DNA of 43,425 bases from Alphaproteobacteria bacterium (lineage in GTDB: Bacteria; Pseudomonadota; Alphaproteobacteria; Geminicoccales; Geminicoccaceae). Positions 26,194-32,930 of this stretch are shown here, in pieces (position 1 is the stretch's first letter; every line of letters begins with the position of its first letter). The position numbers were made by a program, and so were the translations under genes. The stretch covers positions 1-43,425 of the forward strand of contig JAUIID010000016.1 of assembly GCA_030431615.1 (NCBI GenBank). Direction: 5' to 3'. The notes under the pieces were generated by a model, which did no database searches, had not been told where the DNA came from, and saw only the letters and a program-made list of their open reading frames with translations.

Positions 26194-26339
26194 TGTCGCG
26201 GAATCCGCGACAGTTGGGGGCAAGTGTCGCGCTATACGCGACATAAGGGATCGTGATGTCGCGTTATACGCGACAGTTCGGCGGGTGCTGTCGCGTTATA
26301 TGCGACATGCCGGGCCCGACTGTCGCATATAACGCGACA
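26194..26339. repeat. Array 2, part B: five phased 19-bp inverted repeats
   Basis: Dyads at 26194-26212, 26225-26243, 26257-26275, 26289-26307 and 26321-26339, with gaps of 12, 13, 13 and 13 bp, the same as array 1. All keep TGTCGC and GCGACA arms. The first, TGTCGCGGAATCCGCGACA, is perfect over 9-bp arms; the others keep AT-rich cores. The gap sequences differ from array 1, while spacing and arms do not. Confidence 0.95.
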
Positions 26340-26557: not shown

Positions 26558-26752
26558 TCAGGAGAGTGGCACGTCTTCCACCAGTGGTCCGAGATCACGA
26601 GCCGAATGCACCACGCGAATGAAGACGACCTCTCCGGCAGGTTCGTCGATGACGTACAGCATGAGGTGGCGTCCCTCGACGGTCATGCGCACGCCTCCGG
26701 CACCTGCACGATGGCCGTATACTTCGTCGGGCTGCGGACGATCGGTGCTCAC
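26558..26752 (-). pseudogene. ParE/RelE-type toxin, C-terminal remnant
   Basis: A 64-codon frame whose product looks like the second half of a ParE/RelE toxin: GGVRMTVEGRHLMLYVIDE, then VVFIRVVHSARDLGPL. The N-terminal half is missing; the first residues (STDRPQPDEVYGHRAG) look like mid-protein sequence. It lies 81 bp beyond a truncated parE, so it is either that gene's displaced tail or the relic of a second toxin. Confidence 0.65.
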
Positions 26753-26833
26753 GTAGGCTGACTACGCTGCGCGCCGATCGCCTTCCCCTCCTCGTCCACG
26801 GTCACCGTGCAGGCGCCGGAGCCGGAGATCGTG

Positions 26834-26992
26834 TCAACTGGCGCCGATGAGCGGTGTCTCGGTCACTCTGCGCGCCCGTTCGAGGAAGTGGTCGACAACT
26901 CGACCGGCAGCGGAAGGATTGTCAACGGCGATGTGAGCAAAGATGGCGTCGAGATCGCGTTGCGCGAGCCTGGTGAAGCGAAGGCGATACAT
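26834..26992 (-). pseudogene. Truncated parE-like toxin
   Basis: A 52-codon frame starting 5 bp after the antitoxin stop. The product (MYRLRFTRLAQRDLDAIFAH, then NPSAAGRVVDHFLERARRV) is a typical ParE N-terminal half and then stops at ETPLIGAS. A full ParE is about 90-100 residues. The missing half may be the remnant at 26558-26752, with about 80 bp of unrelated sequence between. The toxin is almost certainly inactive. Confidence 0.7.
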
Positions 26993-26997
26993 ACGGC

Positions 26998-27222
26998 CTA
27001 TGAGCCGTATTTCCGCTTGAACGTCGCGAACATCTCCTCGCCATCGACCGTCTCGCCGTTGCGGGCCTGCTCGATCCCCGCGTCAAGATCGCGCCGCAGA
27101 GCAGCCAGCTTCGCCGCCTCGATCTCGCCAAGCCGTTGGCCGAGCGCCCGCAATGCCTCTTCCCGCTCTTCCTCGGGAAACGCCTCGAGCCGATCAGCCA
27201 GTGACTTGAGCATCTGGTCCAT
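26998..27222 (-). CDS. ParD-like antitoxin
   Basis: A 74-residue acidic helical protein (LADRLEAFPEEEREEALRAL, then LRRDLDAGIEQARNGETVDG) resembling antitoxins of parDE modules in alphaproteobacteria, with the usual C-terminal toxin-binding tail. It precedes the truncated parE by 5 bp. With its toxin broken it is a leftover, though it could still act on a related toxin elsewhere. Confidence 0.7.
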   Translation of the reverse strand: MDQMLKSLADRLEAFPEEEREEALRALGQRLGEIEAAKLAALRRDLDAGIEQARNGETVDGEEMFATFKRKYGS

Positions 27223-27836
27223 GCGCCCTCCATACCACGCTCGCCGGCTCGATCGCGAAGGATATTGTGATGATGTGGACCGGCAGCGAGTGTACCAAGC
27301 ACGACCAATAGCGGCGAAGGATGCGCAGTACGCTCAACTCAGCGGATGGTCCGTAGTTACAACACTCGCTGACCAGACGGCATGCGACGCAGAAGCTAAA
27401 TTGAGTCTTGTGGAACCAAAATTCGCGAAGCGGACTTTAGCAACTCACAACGTCGAATGAGACCCGTCGGCGCGAGATTTGCTATGCTACCCAATTTCCA
27501 GTCGGGAATGCACACATGGCTACCTGTGCCGGAACGCACCAAGATTGTCTGACGCCCTAACCCGCCCGGCTCGTAGCGGAAGCGTTGCGGCGACCAATGA
27601 GGCCCAACCCGCATTATCTCAAACAGCCAATGAGGCGAACTCGGAATCTATTGCCAAACCGCCAGTCGTGAAACTAGAGTCCCGTCCAAGCAAACTGAAA
27701 TGCGGACCGAAGGGCAGGGAAAGAGGTATAGAAAATGGCTGGACCACCTGACGCCTCGTGTCTCGCATTCGATTCCGCATGGCATAGCCCCGATCTGTCG
27801 TCGAAACAGCAAGTGCAAAATGTCTCGGAGTGTTGA
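27223..27836. other. Intergenic region, composition shift
   Basis: A 614-bp stretch between divergent genes. The parD promoter and the promoter of the DUF262 gene must lie here. Base composition falls from high GC to mixed, marking the left side of the low-GC segment. Short frames on both strands lack ribosome binding sites and protein-like sequence. Confidence 0.6.
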
Positions 27837-29753
27837 ATGTCATCAATTGAAGTTAAATCGGTCAGCATACCCAAGATTCTTGACAATCTCTTTATAGGCG
27901 AATGGTTGACACCCGAATTTCAGCGCGATTTCGTCTGGACGACCTCTCAAATAATATCCCTAATCAACTCGATCATTGATGCTAAGCCGATAGGAATGGC
28001 AACCCTATGGCAGCAGGAGGAGAAAAGCGATCTACCTCTGGAGCACATATCAGTCAATGACTTCATTTATGATAAATCCAAATCGGGACCAAGATATTTC
28101 GGTGACAATGACCATCGCCCTGGGCGTTATTATGCAATTTTAGACGGCAAGCAACGATCAACTGCAATTGCAATGGCCTTCGGGGGACTCAAGGCCGAAC
28201 ACGGAAACTACAGGTATTCCGGGGGCTATTTTATCAATGCAGATTATGATGATGTGCAGGATCGAATCCAATACCTAAACAAGGCGGAAATTGACCGGAG
28301 AGGATTAAACACACTAACCGCATACGTTCAGAATGCGTTATTTCCAATTGCCCTCAAGAAATTTGACCGCCTTGTTCAGCATTTCTTTGAGTTCATTTCC
28401 GCAATTGATAACGACCAGAATTATCCTGAAGGGCGAGCCGCCTCCAAAGCCGAAAAGGATCGAAGAAAAGAGATAGTACAAGCTGCTTATGAGGGCATTA
28501 ATAACACCCTACTTGCTGTATACATAGTGCCAAAAGAAGAAACTTTAGGCGAGATTTGCGACATCTTCGAGGTCTTGAACACTACGGGAACCAAAGTTAC
28601 TACGGTTGACCTCATTCATTCATCAATATACGCCGAAACAATGAATGAGAGTTCCCAGATTCACATTCGCGATGAAATCGATCTCCTTTCTGAACTTGAT
28701 GGGCTGCAGGGTTGGTCCACATCAAGCTTTAGACCTGAGCTGATTGCACAAAATGTGGCGGCAATTCAGATTGCCCTCGATAGAAAACATACGCCTCGAC
28801 AGGTTGCCGGTCGGAGAGAGGCCAGGATCAACTCTATAAAATCTAGCGATCTATTAGCTATTTCAAGCTTGAGTTGGAGAGACTTCTTTTTGAACCGCGA
28901 GTTTGTTGCAAGCTGCTTCTCGGACTTCCAAACTGTGACATCAGGAGGGCGCTTCTCTCTTTCGCAATGCCCCTATCCAGCAACGCTAAACGTCTACCTT
29001 GCTCTTCGATGGCACCTCGAGTTCGATCGACCCCCTGATGCCCATTGGACGCAAACCCATCTTAATCGCATATTCCGGGCCTTTTTCTGGCGAAACACCT
29101 TTTCGCGTAGATATGACCAGGGCTTTCTAACCCGAGTCAGCGTTGACATTGGAGAGTTCAAAAAGTTCCTTCTCAAGACACGCGCTAAGAGTGATGACCA
29201 AATTTGGGTTTCAGAGGCGGAGGATTTCCTCGGCACCCTTCCGCTGATGTCTCCCTTGACGGTCATTCAGGAAGAAGTTCGGAACGCGATAACTGACGGA
29301 AATATCCGAGGCGCGCTCAGATCAGGGAGTCTTTTGCTATTACACTCACGCGCTCAGAAAGATATAGTTGATCCCACCCAAGATATATCAAACATTACGA
29401 GCGCTCACGAATTGCATCATATTTATCCTCGGAGATGGTGCAGGGACAATGCCCTAGGAGTTAATGTAACTTCATTATCTGAATCAAATTATTTGACAAA
29501 CTGGGTCGAGTCATCTTCGAACCTGATCCCGATGTCAACAAAATCAAATAAACTGTGGGACACGATGGAGCCGTCTACTGCGATAAGTTTGCTGAAAATT
29601 TCGACAAGCGACCAAATAGATCAATTGAAAAGATATTTCGTGGATGAAGGTTGTTTAAGTTTGCTGAAGGGCGGCGCGATGAACGCCGGAGACTTCTTGC
29701 GAGCTAGAGCTAAGTTGATAGAGGCCGAAATTTTACGATTGATGCGAGTATAA
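27837..29753 (+). CDS. DUF262 and HNH domain protein (GmrSD-like)
   Basis: A 638-residue protein with an N-terminal DUF262 domain and a C-terminal HNH-type nuclease motif. The N-terminus has LTPEFQRDFVWTTSQI at about residues 24-39 and the nucleotide-site motif LDGKQRSTAI at about 102-111. HELHHIYPRRW lies at about 523-533. This resembles GmrS/GmrD type IV restriction enzymes, which use NTP and cut modified phage DNA. The ATG at 27837 has GGAG about 7 nt upstream. Codon use and GC are far lower than in the flanks, a sign of transfer. The AlbA_2-domain gene follows after 5 bp, so the two form an operon. Confidence 0.85.
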   Translation: MSSIEVKSVSIPKILDNLFIGEWLTPEFQRDFVWTTSQIISLINSIIDAKPIGMATLWQQEEKSDLPLEHISVNDFIYDKSKSGPRYFGDNDHRPGRYYAILDGKQRSTAIAMAFGGLKAEHGNYRYSGGYFINADYDDVQDRIQYLNKAEIDRRGLNTLTAYVQNALFPIALKKFDRLVQHFFEFISAIDNDQNYPEGRAASKAEKDRRKEIVQAAYEGINNTLLAVYIVPKEETLGEICDIFEVLNTTGTKVTTVDLIHSSIYAETMNESSQIHIRDEIDLLSELDGLQGWSTSSFRPELIAQNVAAIQIALDRKHTPRQVAGRREARINSIKSSDLLAISSLSWRDFFLNREFVASCFSDFQTVTSGGRFSLSQCPYPATLNVYLALRWHLEFDRPPDAHWTQTHLNRIFRAFFWRNTFSRRYDQGFLTRVSVDIGEFKKFLLKTRAKSDDQIWVSEAEDFLGTLPLMSPLTVIQEEVRNAITDGNIRGALRSGSLLLLHSRAQKDIVDPTQDISNITSAHELHHIYPRRWCRDNALGVNVTSLSESNYLTNWVESSSNLIPMSTKSNKLWDTMEPSTAISLLKISTSDQIDQLKRYFVDEGCLSLLKGGAMNAGDFLRARAKLIEAEILRLMRV

Positions 29754-29758
29754 GCATT

Positions 29759-30517
29759 TTGCTCGCTAGCCATACTATTTTTGAAGCAGGCAAACGCCCG
29801 TTGGCGTGCTCAATTAATGATCTTCTGGAGGAATACGGGAAAAACAGAAATTCCCTAGAAGGCCTTTCATTTTTGTTAAAAGTTCTTGAATACTATAAGA
29901 TTGACTTAGATCCCCCTGCTAGCGATTTTGACCTCGACTATCCTCGAACGTTGAAACTTCGGAAACAAGATGGCGAGATAGAAGAAGAAATCAGGGAAGT
30001 GATTGCGGCGGGAGGTGAAAACTATTTTGTCGAACTAAAGTCATCTATCCACATTGATACAAAGAGGAAGCAGCACGACCCTGGTCGAAAGATACATGAG
30101 TATGCGTCAGAGCGGCTTGCAACCAAACTAGCACAGGAGATTTGCGCCTTTCTAAATAGAGATGGCGGAAAAATTCTCTTGGGCATAGCCAATGACTTTT
30201 CCATATTGGGATGTCAAGATGACCTCGATGCCTTTCCGGGAGACGGGTCGCCACAAGATAAAGCCGATCTTTTAATCCGCTCAATTATTGAGAAGAATTT
30301 CATAAAATTTGCTTCCGTACTATCCAGAGTGCAAGTTCAGTGCGTTACTTATGAGCAAAAACTGATAGTCATTCTTAGAATTGCGAGAATGAATGGATTA
30401 GCCTTGCTAAAAGAAGACTGTCCCAGCTCGTGTCAGCTTTATCTACGCATAGGAACGAGCGCCCAACCTATAAAACTTCATGAAGTAGAAGATTATTACT
30501 TAGTGTCTCTTAAATAA
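29759..30517 (+). CDS. Schlafen/AlbA_2-type ATP-binding domain protein
   Basis: A 252-residue protein with an AlbA_2 (Schlafen-like) domain: NYFVELKSSI at about residue 87, then KLAQEICAFLNRDGGKILLG at about 122-141 and NDFSILGCQDD. Residues 1-75 are of unknown type. The start is TTG 29759, 5 bp after the DUF262 stop; no nearby ATG fits, and the ribosome binding site is weak, so coupling is likely. AlbA_2 domains occur in transcription regulators and in several defence genes. As with its partner, the DNA is low in GC. A joint antiphage role is inference. Confidence 0.8.
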   Translation: MLASHTIFEAGKRPLACSINDLLEEYGKNRNSLEGLSFLLKVLEYYKIDLDPPASDFDLDYPRTLKLRKQDGEIEEEIREVIAAGGENYFVELKSSIHIDTKRKQHDPGRKIHEYASERLATKLAQEICAFLNRDGGKILLGIANDFSILGCQDDLDAFPGDGSPQDKADLLIRSIIEKNFIKFASVLSRVQVQCVTYEQKLIVILRIARMNGLALLKEDCPSSCQLYLRIGTSAQPIKLHEVEDYYLVSLK

Positions 30518-30901
30518 AATAAAAAATAGTCTCGCATTCGTTGCATAAATCGGATTTAGTGATCAATGGCGATTTCAATTTTTCGATAACGGCGAAGTGA
30601 TTCTTAAGGAAAAGATTGAACTGCTTGCGCTTCGCAAACAACAGACTCCTCAGTCACGCAACAATGTAGGTTACCAACTTTTCTCAACTGGATCGAAAAT
30701 AAACTCGATGTGAGGAAAATTTCCATTTGCGGGCCGACAGATGTATCGAGAGTCGAGCCAATTCCCTCATTTTAATAGCTGCGTCAGAGTGCCCAATAGA
30801 TTTGCGACTTTGGTATGATCGACACTACTCGAGGGGAAGTACGATCGTGACCGCAATAGCGAATTGCTTGCCTCAATGATCTTGCCAGGAAATAAGACTG
30901 G
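30518..30901. other. AT-rich intergenic region
   Basis: About 380 bp after the AlbA_2-domain gene. It opens with an A-rich run and keeps the low GC of the pair. No gene, hairpin or repeat is seen. It ends at the duplicated 3'-end segment, where GC rises sharply, so 30.9 kb is the right border of the low-GC insert. Confidence 0.6.
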
Positions 30902-31018
30902 ATGGGTACGGGAAGGCCGGCCTTCCAGCCTTTCTTCCTTCCCTACCGCCTTGCCACCTCGCCAATGCTGATGGTTCGCCTGATCTCGTCGTTACCGGGG
31001 GCCATGGGACGGCGGGGG
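30902..31018 (-). repeat. Imperfect direct repeat copy A: relic of a TIGR03032-like gene 3' end
   Basis: This segment aligns with 31772-31905. On the minus strand it would encode PRPMAP, then DEIRRTISIGE and a stop; the intact gene at 31821-32930 ends RRPMALGLKTDEIRRTISIG with a few more residues. The 16-bp palindrome GGAAGGCCGGCCTTCC beyond the stop is also shared. The match is clear but not exact, so it is old or came from another strain. It and copy B bracket the HigBA-type module. Confidence 0.8.
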
Positions 31019-31074: not shown

Positions 31075-31368
31075 TTACTGCAATTCGACCGACAAGGTGC
31101 GTCCGACGATCCTGGCGGCGCGGGCCAGGGTGGCGAGGCTCACGCTGTCGTTGGTGGGGTCGAGGAGGCGGTCGAGCTGGGAGCGGCTGGTGGCGAGGCG
31201 CCGGGCCATCTCGACCTTGGTGATCTTCTGCTCTGCCATTGCCGCGGCGAGCTGGAAGGCCAGGACGCGCTTGACGGCACGTTCGGTGGTCTCCTCGTAA
31301 GTTCCCTGCTCGCGCAGGAAGTCGTCGAAGAATTGTCCGGCCCTGCCCTTCTCGACATCGTTCGTCAT
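31075..31368 (-). CDS. HigA-like antitoxin (XRE family)
   Basis: A 97-residue antitoxin with a helix-turn-helix: ITKVEMARRLATSRSQLDRL at about residues 49-68, followed by SVSLATLARAARIVGRTLSV. Such proteins neutralise HigB-type toxins and repress the operon. It overlaps the toxin gene by 4 bp (ATGA). Toxin-first order is typical of HigBA. Confidence 0.87.
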   Translation of the reverse strand: MTNDVEKGRAGQFFDDFLREQGTYEETTERAVKRVLAFQLAAAMAEQKITKVEMARRLATSRSQLDRLLDPTNDSVSLATLARAARIVGRTLSVELQ

Positions 31369-31730
31369 GTCAGACCTCGCATTCGTCGTTCGGCAATGGT
31401 CAGTTCGTTGTCGGGTGTCTTCTGGGTTTTCTTGATGAAGCCATGCAGAAGAACCATGGCGCCATCATTGATACAGAAGAGCACGCGGGCGATTCGTCCA
31501 CCTTCGAGGTTGGCTCGTATCTCCCAGAGTCCCTTTCGCCCGCTGATCGAGCGGCAAAGCGGCATGCCAATCGGCCAGCCAAACTCGGCGGTCCTGATAT
31601 CGTCGCCGATGGCCTTGCGATCGGCGTCGGACAAGGACAGGAGCCAGTCCCGCACCGGCATGCGGCCGGTTTCGGACTCGAAGAACCTCGCTGGCAGTCG
31701 CTTGGCTTCATTCACGCCGGAATGTACCAA
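31365..31730 (-). CDS. HigB/Gp49-like toxin
   Basis: A 121-residue RelE-superfamily toxin of the phage Gp49/HigB type. Features are RFFESETGRMPVRDWLLSLS near the start, LWEIRANLEGGRIARVLFC and the C-terminal LHGFIKKTQKTPDNELTIAE. Members cut mRNA on the ribosome. It is the first gene of the module. The module sits exactly between two copies of the neighbouring gene's 3' end. Confidence 0.9.
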   Translation of the reverse strand: MVHSGVNEAKRLPARFFESETGRMPVRDWLLSLSDADRKAIGDDIRTAEFGWPIGMPLCRSISGRKGLWEIRANLEGGRIARVLFCINDGAMVLLHGFIKKTQKTPDNELTIAERRMRGLT

Positions 31731-31771: not shown

Positions 31772-31905
31772 GATGGGCGCGGGAAGGCCGGCCTTCCCGC
31801 CTCTTCCCACTTCCTAATCTCTACAGCCTGAGCGGCTCGCCGATGCTGATGGTTCGTCTGATTTCGTCGGTCTTGAGGCCGAGGGCCATGGGGCGGCGGG
31901 TGTTT
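31772..31905 (-). repeat. Imperfect direct repeat copy B: intact gene 3' end and hairpin
   Basis: The last 28 codons of the TIGR03032-like gene plus its downstream hairpin, matching copy A at 30902-31018. The hairpin is a perfect inverted repeat of 22 bp (31779-31800) that contains GGAAGGCCGGCCTTCC and may end transcription of the TIGR03032-like gene. Confidence 0.75.
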
Positions 31906-32930
31906 GGGAGGATGGCGGTGTCGTAGAGTTCCTCGACGACGCCTTCGAGGCGGAGCCAGTGGGGGATTTCGCCGGTGGTGAGGTCGACGACGAGGAGGCC
32001 GCAGCGGGGGGTGGTGCCTTTGGCGGCGAGGGCTTCGTCGAGGGGGAGGCCTTCGAAGGTCTTGTTGTCGCGGGGGCGGGAGAGGCCGATGACGGCGAAG
32101 CTGCCGTGGAGGGCGAGGCCGCGGGCGTAGCCGGGGCAGAAGGCGATTTCGGTGAAGCGGCCGGAGGCCTGGTCGATGGTGCCGAAGCGGCCGGTGCCGG
32201 AATCGAGGAGGTAGAGCTTTTCGCCGTCTCCCGCATCGTGGAGACGAGGGGAGTGGGGCATGGCGAGGTTGGTGGCGACGGTTTCGCCGGTGGCGACGTC
32301 GATGACGATGCCGCCCTTGGCGCGGTGGTCGCGCCAGCCGTCGGCGGTGTCGGATCTGGCGACGGCGGTGACGAAGGCGGGGCGGCCGCTTGCCATGGCG
32401 AGGCCGTTGAGGTGGCAGCGGTCCTCGGCGGCGAGGCGGGAGATGAAGGGGGGCTGCCAGAGGGGGCGGAAGCTCGAGGCGGTGTCGGGGGTGGCGAGGC
32501 AGGAGAAGAGGGTGTTGACGAAGACGGGGGTGGGCTCGCCGGGGGTGGGCCCTGGGCCGTCGGGCGCCAGCATGGCCACGTCATGGATATCGAGGTCGCC
32601 GGTGGTCCAGGCGAGGCGGGGGACGTAGAGGCGGTCGTGGCCCTGGTGGGTCTGGCCGGGGTTGAGGATGTCGTCGAAGCGCCAGAGCTGGAAGAGGGTG
32701 GAGAGGTAGAGCTGGCGCCCCCCTCGCGCAGATTCGTGGACGGCGAGGCCCATGGCGCGGTTGAAGGTGCGCTCGAAGACGGCGAGGCGGCCGTCGGGCT
32801 GGAGGCCCAGGAGGAAGAGCTTGCCGGACTGGTAGGTCGTGAAGGCGAGGCCGATGCCCGCTTCGGCGAGCCAGGCGGTGAAGTGACGGGACGCCTGGAT
32901 CTGGAGGGCGGGGGTCGGGTGCTTGGTCAT
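31821..32930 (-). CDS. TIGR03032/DUF4915 family protein
   Basis: A 369-residue cytosolic protein matching the TIGR03032 group. Features are HFTAWLAEAGIGLAFTTYQS, then KLFLLG, RTFNRAMGLA, DRLYVPRLAWTTGDLDIHDV, PLWQPPFISRLAAEDRCHLN and the C-terminal RRPMALGLKTDEIRRTISIG. The fold is probably a beta propeller (recurring GLAL and VVDL strands). Function of the family is not established. Its 3' end is the sequence duplicated at 30902-31018. Confidence 0.85.
   Translation of the reverse strand: MTKHPTPALQIQASRHFTAWLAEAGIGLAFTTYQSGKLFLLGLQPDGRLAVFERTFNRAMGLAVHESARGGRQLYLSTLFQLWRFDDILNPGQTHQGHDRLYVPRLAWTTGDLDIHDVAMLAPDGPGPTPGEPTPVFVNTLFSCLATPDTASSFRPLWQPPFISRLAAEDRCHLNGLAMASGRPAFVTAVARSDTADGWRDHRAKGGIVIDVATGETVATNLAMPHSPRLHDAGDGEKLYLLDSGTGRFGTIDQASGRFTEIAFCPGYARGLALHGSFAVIGLSRPRDNKTFEGLPLDEALAAKGTTPRCGLLVVDLTTGEIPHWLRLEGVVEELYDTAILPNTRRPMALGLKTDEIRRTISIGEPLRL

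Follow-up and report, generated by a model that had tools for sequence, protein, structure and literature searches.

The two adjacent low-GC genes at positions 27837-30517 of the 43,425-nucleotide stretch of DNA analyzed here (the window) probably constitute one antiviral system that strikes both foreign DNA and translation. Gene 1 encodes a DUF262-HNH protein and gene 2 a Schlafen/AlbA_2 protein. On balance, we favor a model in which the pair is a single horizontally transferred anti-phage module, with gene 1 acting as a DNA sensor and nuclease that switches on a gene 2 ribonuclease (RNase). The observations on which this model is built are the conserved adjacency of the two genes, the fusion of their domains in other lineages, the repeated association of the two families, the intact ExxxxExK motif of gene 2, the Schlafen fold of its predicted model, and defense or mobile neighborhoods in several relatives.

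The open reading frames (ORFs) of the 43-kb window place gene 1 (638 aa, ATG start) directly upstream of gene 2 (252 aa, TTG start), whose open frame extends 15 codons further upstream. The short spacing between them suggests translational coupling. The features of the locus, with the evidence for each, are as follows.

27837..29753, + strand: gene 1, DUF262 (GmrSD_N, ParB/Srx-like NTPase), helical region, HNH motif (Pfam, BrxU, HEC-05, conserved HNH residues)
29754..29758, + strand: gene 1-gene 2 junction, 5 bp (ORF coordinates)
29759..30517, + strand: gene 2, ~80-aa N-terminal domain followed by a Schlafen fold (Pfam, PDB profile matches, AlphaFold, Foldseek, VIA-align)
27400..30900, no strand: low-GC, putatively acquired segment, approximate extent (43-55% GC vs 68% GC background)
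27001-27222, - strand: ParD-like ORF of the left flank (Pfam scan)
31078-31368, - strand: HTH antitoxin beside the HigB/Gp49-type toxin (Pfam scan)
31368-31730, - strand: HigB/Gp49-type toxin, apparently intact (PF05973, E=3e-21)

The original prediction, made from the sequence of this locus, described a two-gene set 5 bp apart and far below its surroundings in GC, and both the ORFs and the base composition agree with it. GC content is 45.4% in gene 1 and 42.0% in gene 2 (~44% for the pair), whereas other 2.7-kb stretches of the window have 68.3 ± 2.8%, with a minimum of 59.4%. Third-position GC (GC3) differs even more, at 40-47% in the pair vs 90-95% in four neighboring genes. These gaps in GC and GC3 point to a fairly recent horizontal acquisition of both genes. 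The GC of the pair is also below that of its flanks in three relatives, from Thalassovita, Phyllobacterium and Rhizobium.

The flanking toxin-antitoxin (TA) modules that had also been proposed were found to be half right: the right flank carries an apparently intact higBA-like pair, whereas the toxin of the parDE-like pair on the left is broken. The latter region (26558-27222, - strand) is a decayed TA module in which the ParD-like ORF is followed by a ParE-like toxin in two pieces, separated by stop codons. The right-hand margin of the low-GC segment holds a diverged direct duplication (30901-31016 and 31772-31900; 76% over 129 bp, gaps included) of the 3' end of an SMP-30-like gene (31821-32930, - strand), with the partial copy lying across the higBA-like pair; this duplication may be the trace of an insertion or a recombination. 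Further to the left, positions 26194-26339 contain palindromic 19-mers that resemble TGTCGCGTTATACGCGACA, four to five of them in tandem at a spacing of 31-32 bp, with one perfect 19-bp inverted repeat pair; this could possibly be an operator array or a REP-like element. An Rfam scan gave no match, no obvious BREX genes were seen among the ORF translations around the pair, and the search for an empty site in congeners found synteny with the window limited to one neighboring gene.

Gene 1 matches PF03235 (GmrSD_N/DUF262; E=2.5e-25, 90 bits against a cut-off of 33) and PADLOC HEC-05 (E=3e-22), and among solved structures it is closest in sequence to BrxU (7p9k; phmmer E=1.8e-10; hhalign 97.4% over residues 11-284). 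Its predicted model was poor (pLDDT 39). The canonical nucleotide-binding motif is (I/V)DGQQR (PMC10952713), whereas gene 1 has the close variant LDGKQR at residues 102-107, a form shared with Thalassovita and replaced by LDGRQR in Phyllobacterium. The HNH motif consists of ELHHIYP (residues 525-531) and SNLIPM...SNK (residues 561-572), and H527, H528, P531, N562 and N571 are invariant across three gene-1 orthologs, which also have in common FQRxFVW, an LDGKQR-type motif, FExLNTTGTK and an HNH-type C-terminus (HHIYP ... N ... SNxxW). GmrSD_C (PF07510) gave no match above threshold in the window, and one ortholog scored 18 bits against a cut-off of 23. Because of the non-canonical DGKQR and the sub-threshold GmrSD_C, we classify gene 1 on its sequence as BrxU/GmrSD-like, short of a proven type IV enzyme. 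Judged from its family, restriction of modified DNA by gene 1 is plausible, and DUF262 proteins in general are found in defense islands (PMC4619093).

Several lines of comparison place gene 2 among the Schlafen-like proteins. It matches PF04326 (SLFN_AlbA_2) with E=2.4e-11 (44.6 bits; cut-off 25.3), and the best PDB matches of a profile of its family were vertebrate Schlafens (SLFN11, E=3.6e-11; SLFN12 and SLFN14, about 1e-9). Residues ~70-250 of the AlphaFold model (pLDDT 78) gave Z 9.3-11.8 to SLFN13/14, the SAMD9 tRNase domain and bacterial DIP2311 (Foldseek, VIA-align); in VIA-align, Z was 9.3-10.2 to SLFN14/SLFN13 and 11.1 to SAMD9. In the viral fold library, only distant Schlafen-like proteins, from large DNA viruses, were found. 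The 252-aa protein has a single AlbA_2 lobe rather than the two-lobe pseudo-dimeric core of vertebrate SLFN proteins. Ahead of the fold lie ~80 extra residues that are present in gene 2 of the split pairs and absent from the single-chain fusions described below.

The Schlafen nuclease motif ExxxxExK is present in gene 2 as E87-NYFV-E92-L-K94, and its three residues are unchanged in all 11 split and fused proteins tabulated, at 25-48% overall identity; both later-found orthologs have the motif as well. Each of the corresponding residues of SLFN14 (E206/E211/K213) is essential (PMC12215978). ExxxxExK occurs too in other AlbA_2 proteins of unproven function, so the motif alone is no proof of RNase activity. 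At the third acidic position, Asn145, within GIANDF (residues 142-147), stands at the position of SLFN14 D249 (rSLFN13 D248). This residue is Asn in the window and Thalassovita and Asp in the other nine of the 11, and we therefore call gene 2 Schlafen-like and not a proven Schlafen RNase. In SLFN14, the D249N substitution only moderately affected tRNA cleavage (PMC12215978). Throughout the aligned family, an (L/F)(Y/F)xR motif keeps its arginine without exception (R230 in gene 2), and by analogy this residue may correspond in role to R133 of SLFN14.

The D-to-N change in the window protein is also what could be expected if gene 2 were a non-nucleolytic subunit that binds nucleic acid as an accessory or specificity factor, helping gene 1 to recognize or hold DNA and leaving all killing to the HNH domain. 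Annotations frequently describe AlbA_2 domains as DNA-binding, as in pAgo operons (PMC6299218), and human SLFN5 has the fold but did not show cleavage of type II tRNAs or of DNA (PMC8789055). However, the invariance of E87, E92 and K94 among proteins this divergent goes beyond the needs of binding, and tRNases are among the closest folds to the gene 2 model. We consider a purely binding role unlikely. A role for gene 2 as a transcriptional or activity regulator of gene 1, such as an autorepressor or an antitoxin-like restraint, would suit a small protein encoded in the same operon, and many AlbA_2 genes are annotated as regulators. Over residues 1-69, the model has one weak match, to a C-terminal stretch in a Fic protein (Z 4.5), and this part of gene 2 is possibly a winged helix. 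Nonetheless, gene 2 lies downstream of gene 1, whereas most autoregulators lie upstream; the catalytic motif is conserved; and in at least three lineages AlbA_2 sits on the C-terminus of a DUF262-HNH protein with no N-terminal domain, an arrangement ill-suited to a transcription factor. Regulation is thus the less probable of these two alternatives. The original prediction had regarded the AlbA_2 gene as an unusual partner, an accessory sensor or regulator in a possibly undescribed variant. The unusual partnership is upheld by the conserved pairing and by the fusions, whereas the sensor or regulator role now seems less likely than that of a Schlafen-type RNase effector, given the invariant ExxxxExK, the tRNase-like model and the effector position of AlbA_2 beside HNH in the fusions.

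The pairing of the two genes is conserved. Three gene-1 orthologs, in Thalassovita mediterranea, Phyllobacterium sp. and a Rhizobium MAG (in which gene 1 is frameshifted), came from an alignment-guided scan that covered 85,000 species genomes; in 3/3 an AlbA_2 gene lies directly 3' of gene 1 (4/4 with the window). As an out-of-sample test, 321 genomes of Thalassovita's order were searched with gene 1 only; this yielded two new orthologs (G879 and G727), each with AlbA_2 directly downstream (2/2), for an overall count of 6/6 with the window included. The two genes are separated by 0 bp in Thalassovita, 3 bp in Phyllobacterium and 9 bp in Rhizobium, and their open frames overlap in G879 and G727. 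Identities fall into the same grouping for both proteins: 61% for gene 1 and 47% for gene 2 between the window and Thalassovita, 61% and 35% between Phyllobacterium and Rhizobium, and 44-48% and 26-28% across groups. This matching grouping indicates, at the level of sequence, that the two genes travel together and that gene 2 evolves faster. The Phyllobacterium pair adjoins hsdS and hsdM, IS3 genes are near the Thalassovita pair, IS3 and integrase-like genes are near the Rhizobium pair, and an integrase-like gene is near the G879 pair. Single-sequence scans of genome and viral contigs found no close relative of gene 2, and the viral contigs held no close relative of gene 1 either; plasmid and phage collections contained no gene 2 ortholog and, for gene 1, only distant DUF262 proteins.

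The same domains also occur in one chain. DUF262-HNH-AlbA_2 fusions of 700-760 aa are present in proteobacteria and haloarchaea, and Pfam confirmed both DUF262 and AlbA_2 domains in 6/6 fused chains scanned. The fusions include a 712-aa protein (G270); a 711-aa protein on S. meliloti pSymA, annotated merely as 'DUF262 domain-containing protein' and located near a type I RM system and an abortive-infection (Abi) gene; three further proteobacterial proteins (G545, G454 and G574); and proteins encoded by two haloarchaeal plasmids. In H. walsbyi, a restriction endonuclease gene is in the neighborhood. In hhalign, the split and fused AlbA_2 parts align at 98.8%. On the plasmid of haloarchaeon DL31, AAA-4 (AlbA_2) and DUF262 additionally occur as distinct genes (L020, 24-935 and 2854-4716), within 5 kb of the fusion and on the opposite strand.

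Phylogenetic analysis of the DUF262-HNH part groups the split pairs in a single clade (100/100 support) and scatters the fusions over three other positions, so that linkage to AlbA_2 needs at least four state changes, forced by supported branches. This repeated, apparently independent pairing is the strongest argument from sequence for a joint function. The pair is thus neither confined to the window nor formed with a randomly placed AlbA_2 gene, either of which would have counted against the original prediction.

The pairing is also specific. Among 289 alphaproteobacterial genomes, 54 AlbA_2 and about 100 DUF262 matches were linked only in the window and in the G270 fusion, with about 0.04 linkages expected by chance when the window is excluded. 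A general link between DUF262 and AlbA_2 across the whole class is ruled out by this survey, and ten distant viral DUF262 homologs (22-30% identity) had no AlbA_2; these controls indicate that AlbA_2 is linked to DUF262 in only a few clades, that of the window among them. Repeated insertions in the area (the TA remnants and the partial 3' gene duplication) and the missing class-wide link would suit two independent defense genes whose adjacency within a shared island is meaningless, but this reading is strongly disfavored and highly improbable in light of 6/6 adjacent orthologs with 0-9 bp spacing or overlapping frames, fusions in both bacteria and archaea, and at least four independent associations.

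The AlbA_2 subfamily of gene 2 is joined to other partners as well, including transmembrane segments, an N6-methylase-like protein and an unrelated N-terminal region, as expected of a portable effector. In three genomes, AlbA_2 of the gene 2 type is fused to N-terminal hydrophobic segments (L028 1102-2019, L029 1219-2022 and L051 5245-5844), and these proteins are apparently membrane-anchored and Schlafen-like, as judged from their sequences. A restriction-linked architecture is found at L007 1249-2907 (G175), where AlbA_2 is fused to an N6-methylase-like protein with a type I HsdM-like N-terminus, and a 719-aa protein at L045 4016-6172 (G409) fuses a TPR-like N-terminal region to a gene-2-type AlbA_2.

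In the model that we favor, the DUF262 NTPase domain of gene 1 would recognize foreign DNA, probably modified or otherwise marked, using NTP, and the HNH domain would cut or nick it. DNA sensing by a DUF262 NTPase and cutting by HNH have been described for BrxU and SspE (PMC10952713). Gene 2 would be a Schlafen-fold, metal-dependent RNase that is held by gene 1 and switched on through it. Once gene 1 engaged its target, gene 2 would cleave RNA, most likely tRNA, and the resulting translation arrest would abort the infection if DNA restriction were insufficient. In the split form, the extra N-terminal domain of gene 2 may dock gene 1. The physical complex, the DNA sensing, the gating, the RNA substrate and the anti-phage effect of the pair are the parts of this model that we infer. 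More broadly, and more tentatively than the model for this pair, we propose a possible widespread and hitherto undescribed class of defense systems. Here a DUF262-HNH protein that senses and cuts DNA would control a tRNase of Schlafen type and so couple DNA restriction to translational suicide; the class would have arisen several times independently, both as operons and as single-chain fusions, among bacteria and haloarchaea.

Type IV-like DUF262-HNH enzymes are known for cleaving phage DNA that carries modifications, and in animals Schlafens act as antiviral tRNases. Both domains are known, as is the general logic of a DUF262 sensor plus an effector. What appears to be undescribed is their combination, DUF262-HNH with Schlafen, in split or fused form: none of the papers searched mentions DUF262 together with AlbA_2 and, with a 2025 bacterial-Schlafen preprint left aside, none of those listed pairs DUF262 with a Schlafen. 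If our model is correct, a recurrent bacterial and archaeal module ties the sensing of DNA to a suicide effector that cleaves RNA, which would explain the extra domain of many '700-aa DUF262 proteins' and would provide a prokaryotic relative, compact and testable, of a nuclease of animal innate immunity. Natural comparisons for working out gating are available between the fused proteins of S. meliloti and the haloarchaea and the split pairs of alphaproteobacteria.

Among known systems, gene 1 most resembles BrxU, a GmrSD-family type IV restriction enzyme (7p9k, PMC8565348), and GmrSD (PMC4619093), with which it shares the order of motifs in the DUF262 N-terminus, a probable C-terminal DUF1524-type HNH, and a defense-island and mobile context. 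It differs from them in belonging to another DUF262 clade, in having LDGKQR instead of DGQQR, in its divergent HNH region and in its constant Schlafen/AlbA_2 partner, for which neither BrxU nor GmrSD has an equivalent. PADLOC HEC-05 models (566-621 positions) match gene 1 and the fusions, but the matches end before the AlbA_2 part, and PADLOC has no model for gene 2. Gene 2 has the fold and the ExxxxExK motif in common with the nuclease core of SLFN11/12/13/14 and with the SAMD9 tRNase domain. Unlike these proteins, it has a single lobe rather than a pseudo-dimer, lacks a helicase part, carries an additional ~80-aa domain at its N-terminus and Asn at the third acidic position, and has a DUF262-HNH partner. 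For BREX, both HNH nucleases of GmrSD type and Schlafen RNases have been reported as auxiliary effectors, with the Schlafens serving as suicidal back-ups (PMC12839542); there, however, nuclease and Schlafen are separate add-ons to the core genes (PMC12839542), whereas here the two appear to make up a stand-alone module. Parallels in logic are seen in other DUF262-containing defense systems, Menshen, Dazbog, PD-T4-2 and Ssp (PMC10952713), in which a DUF262 NTPase is likewise coupled to a second effector or sensor, although the partners in those systems include an OLD nuclease and phosphorothioate sensing, and none is described with an AlbA_2/Schlafen partner (PMC10952713).
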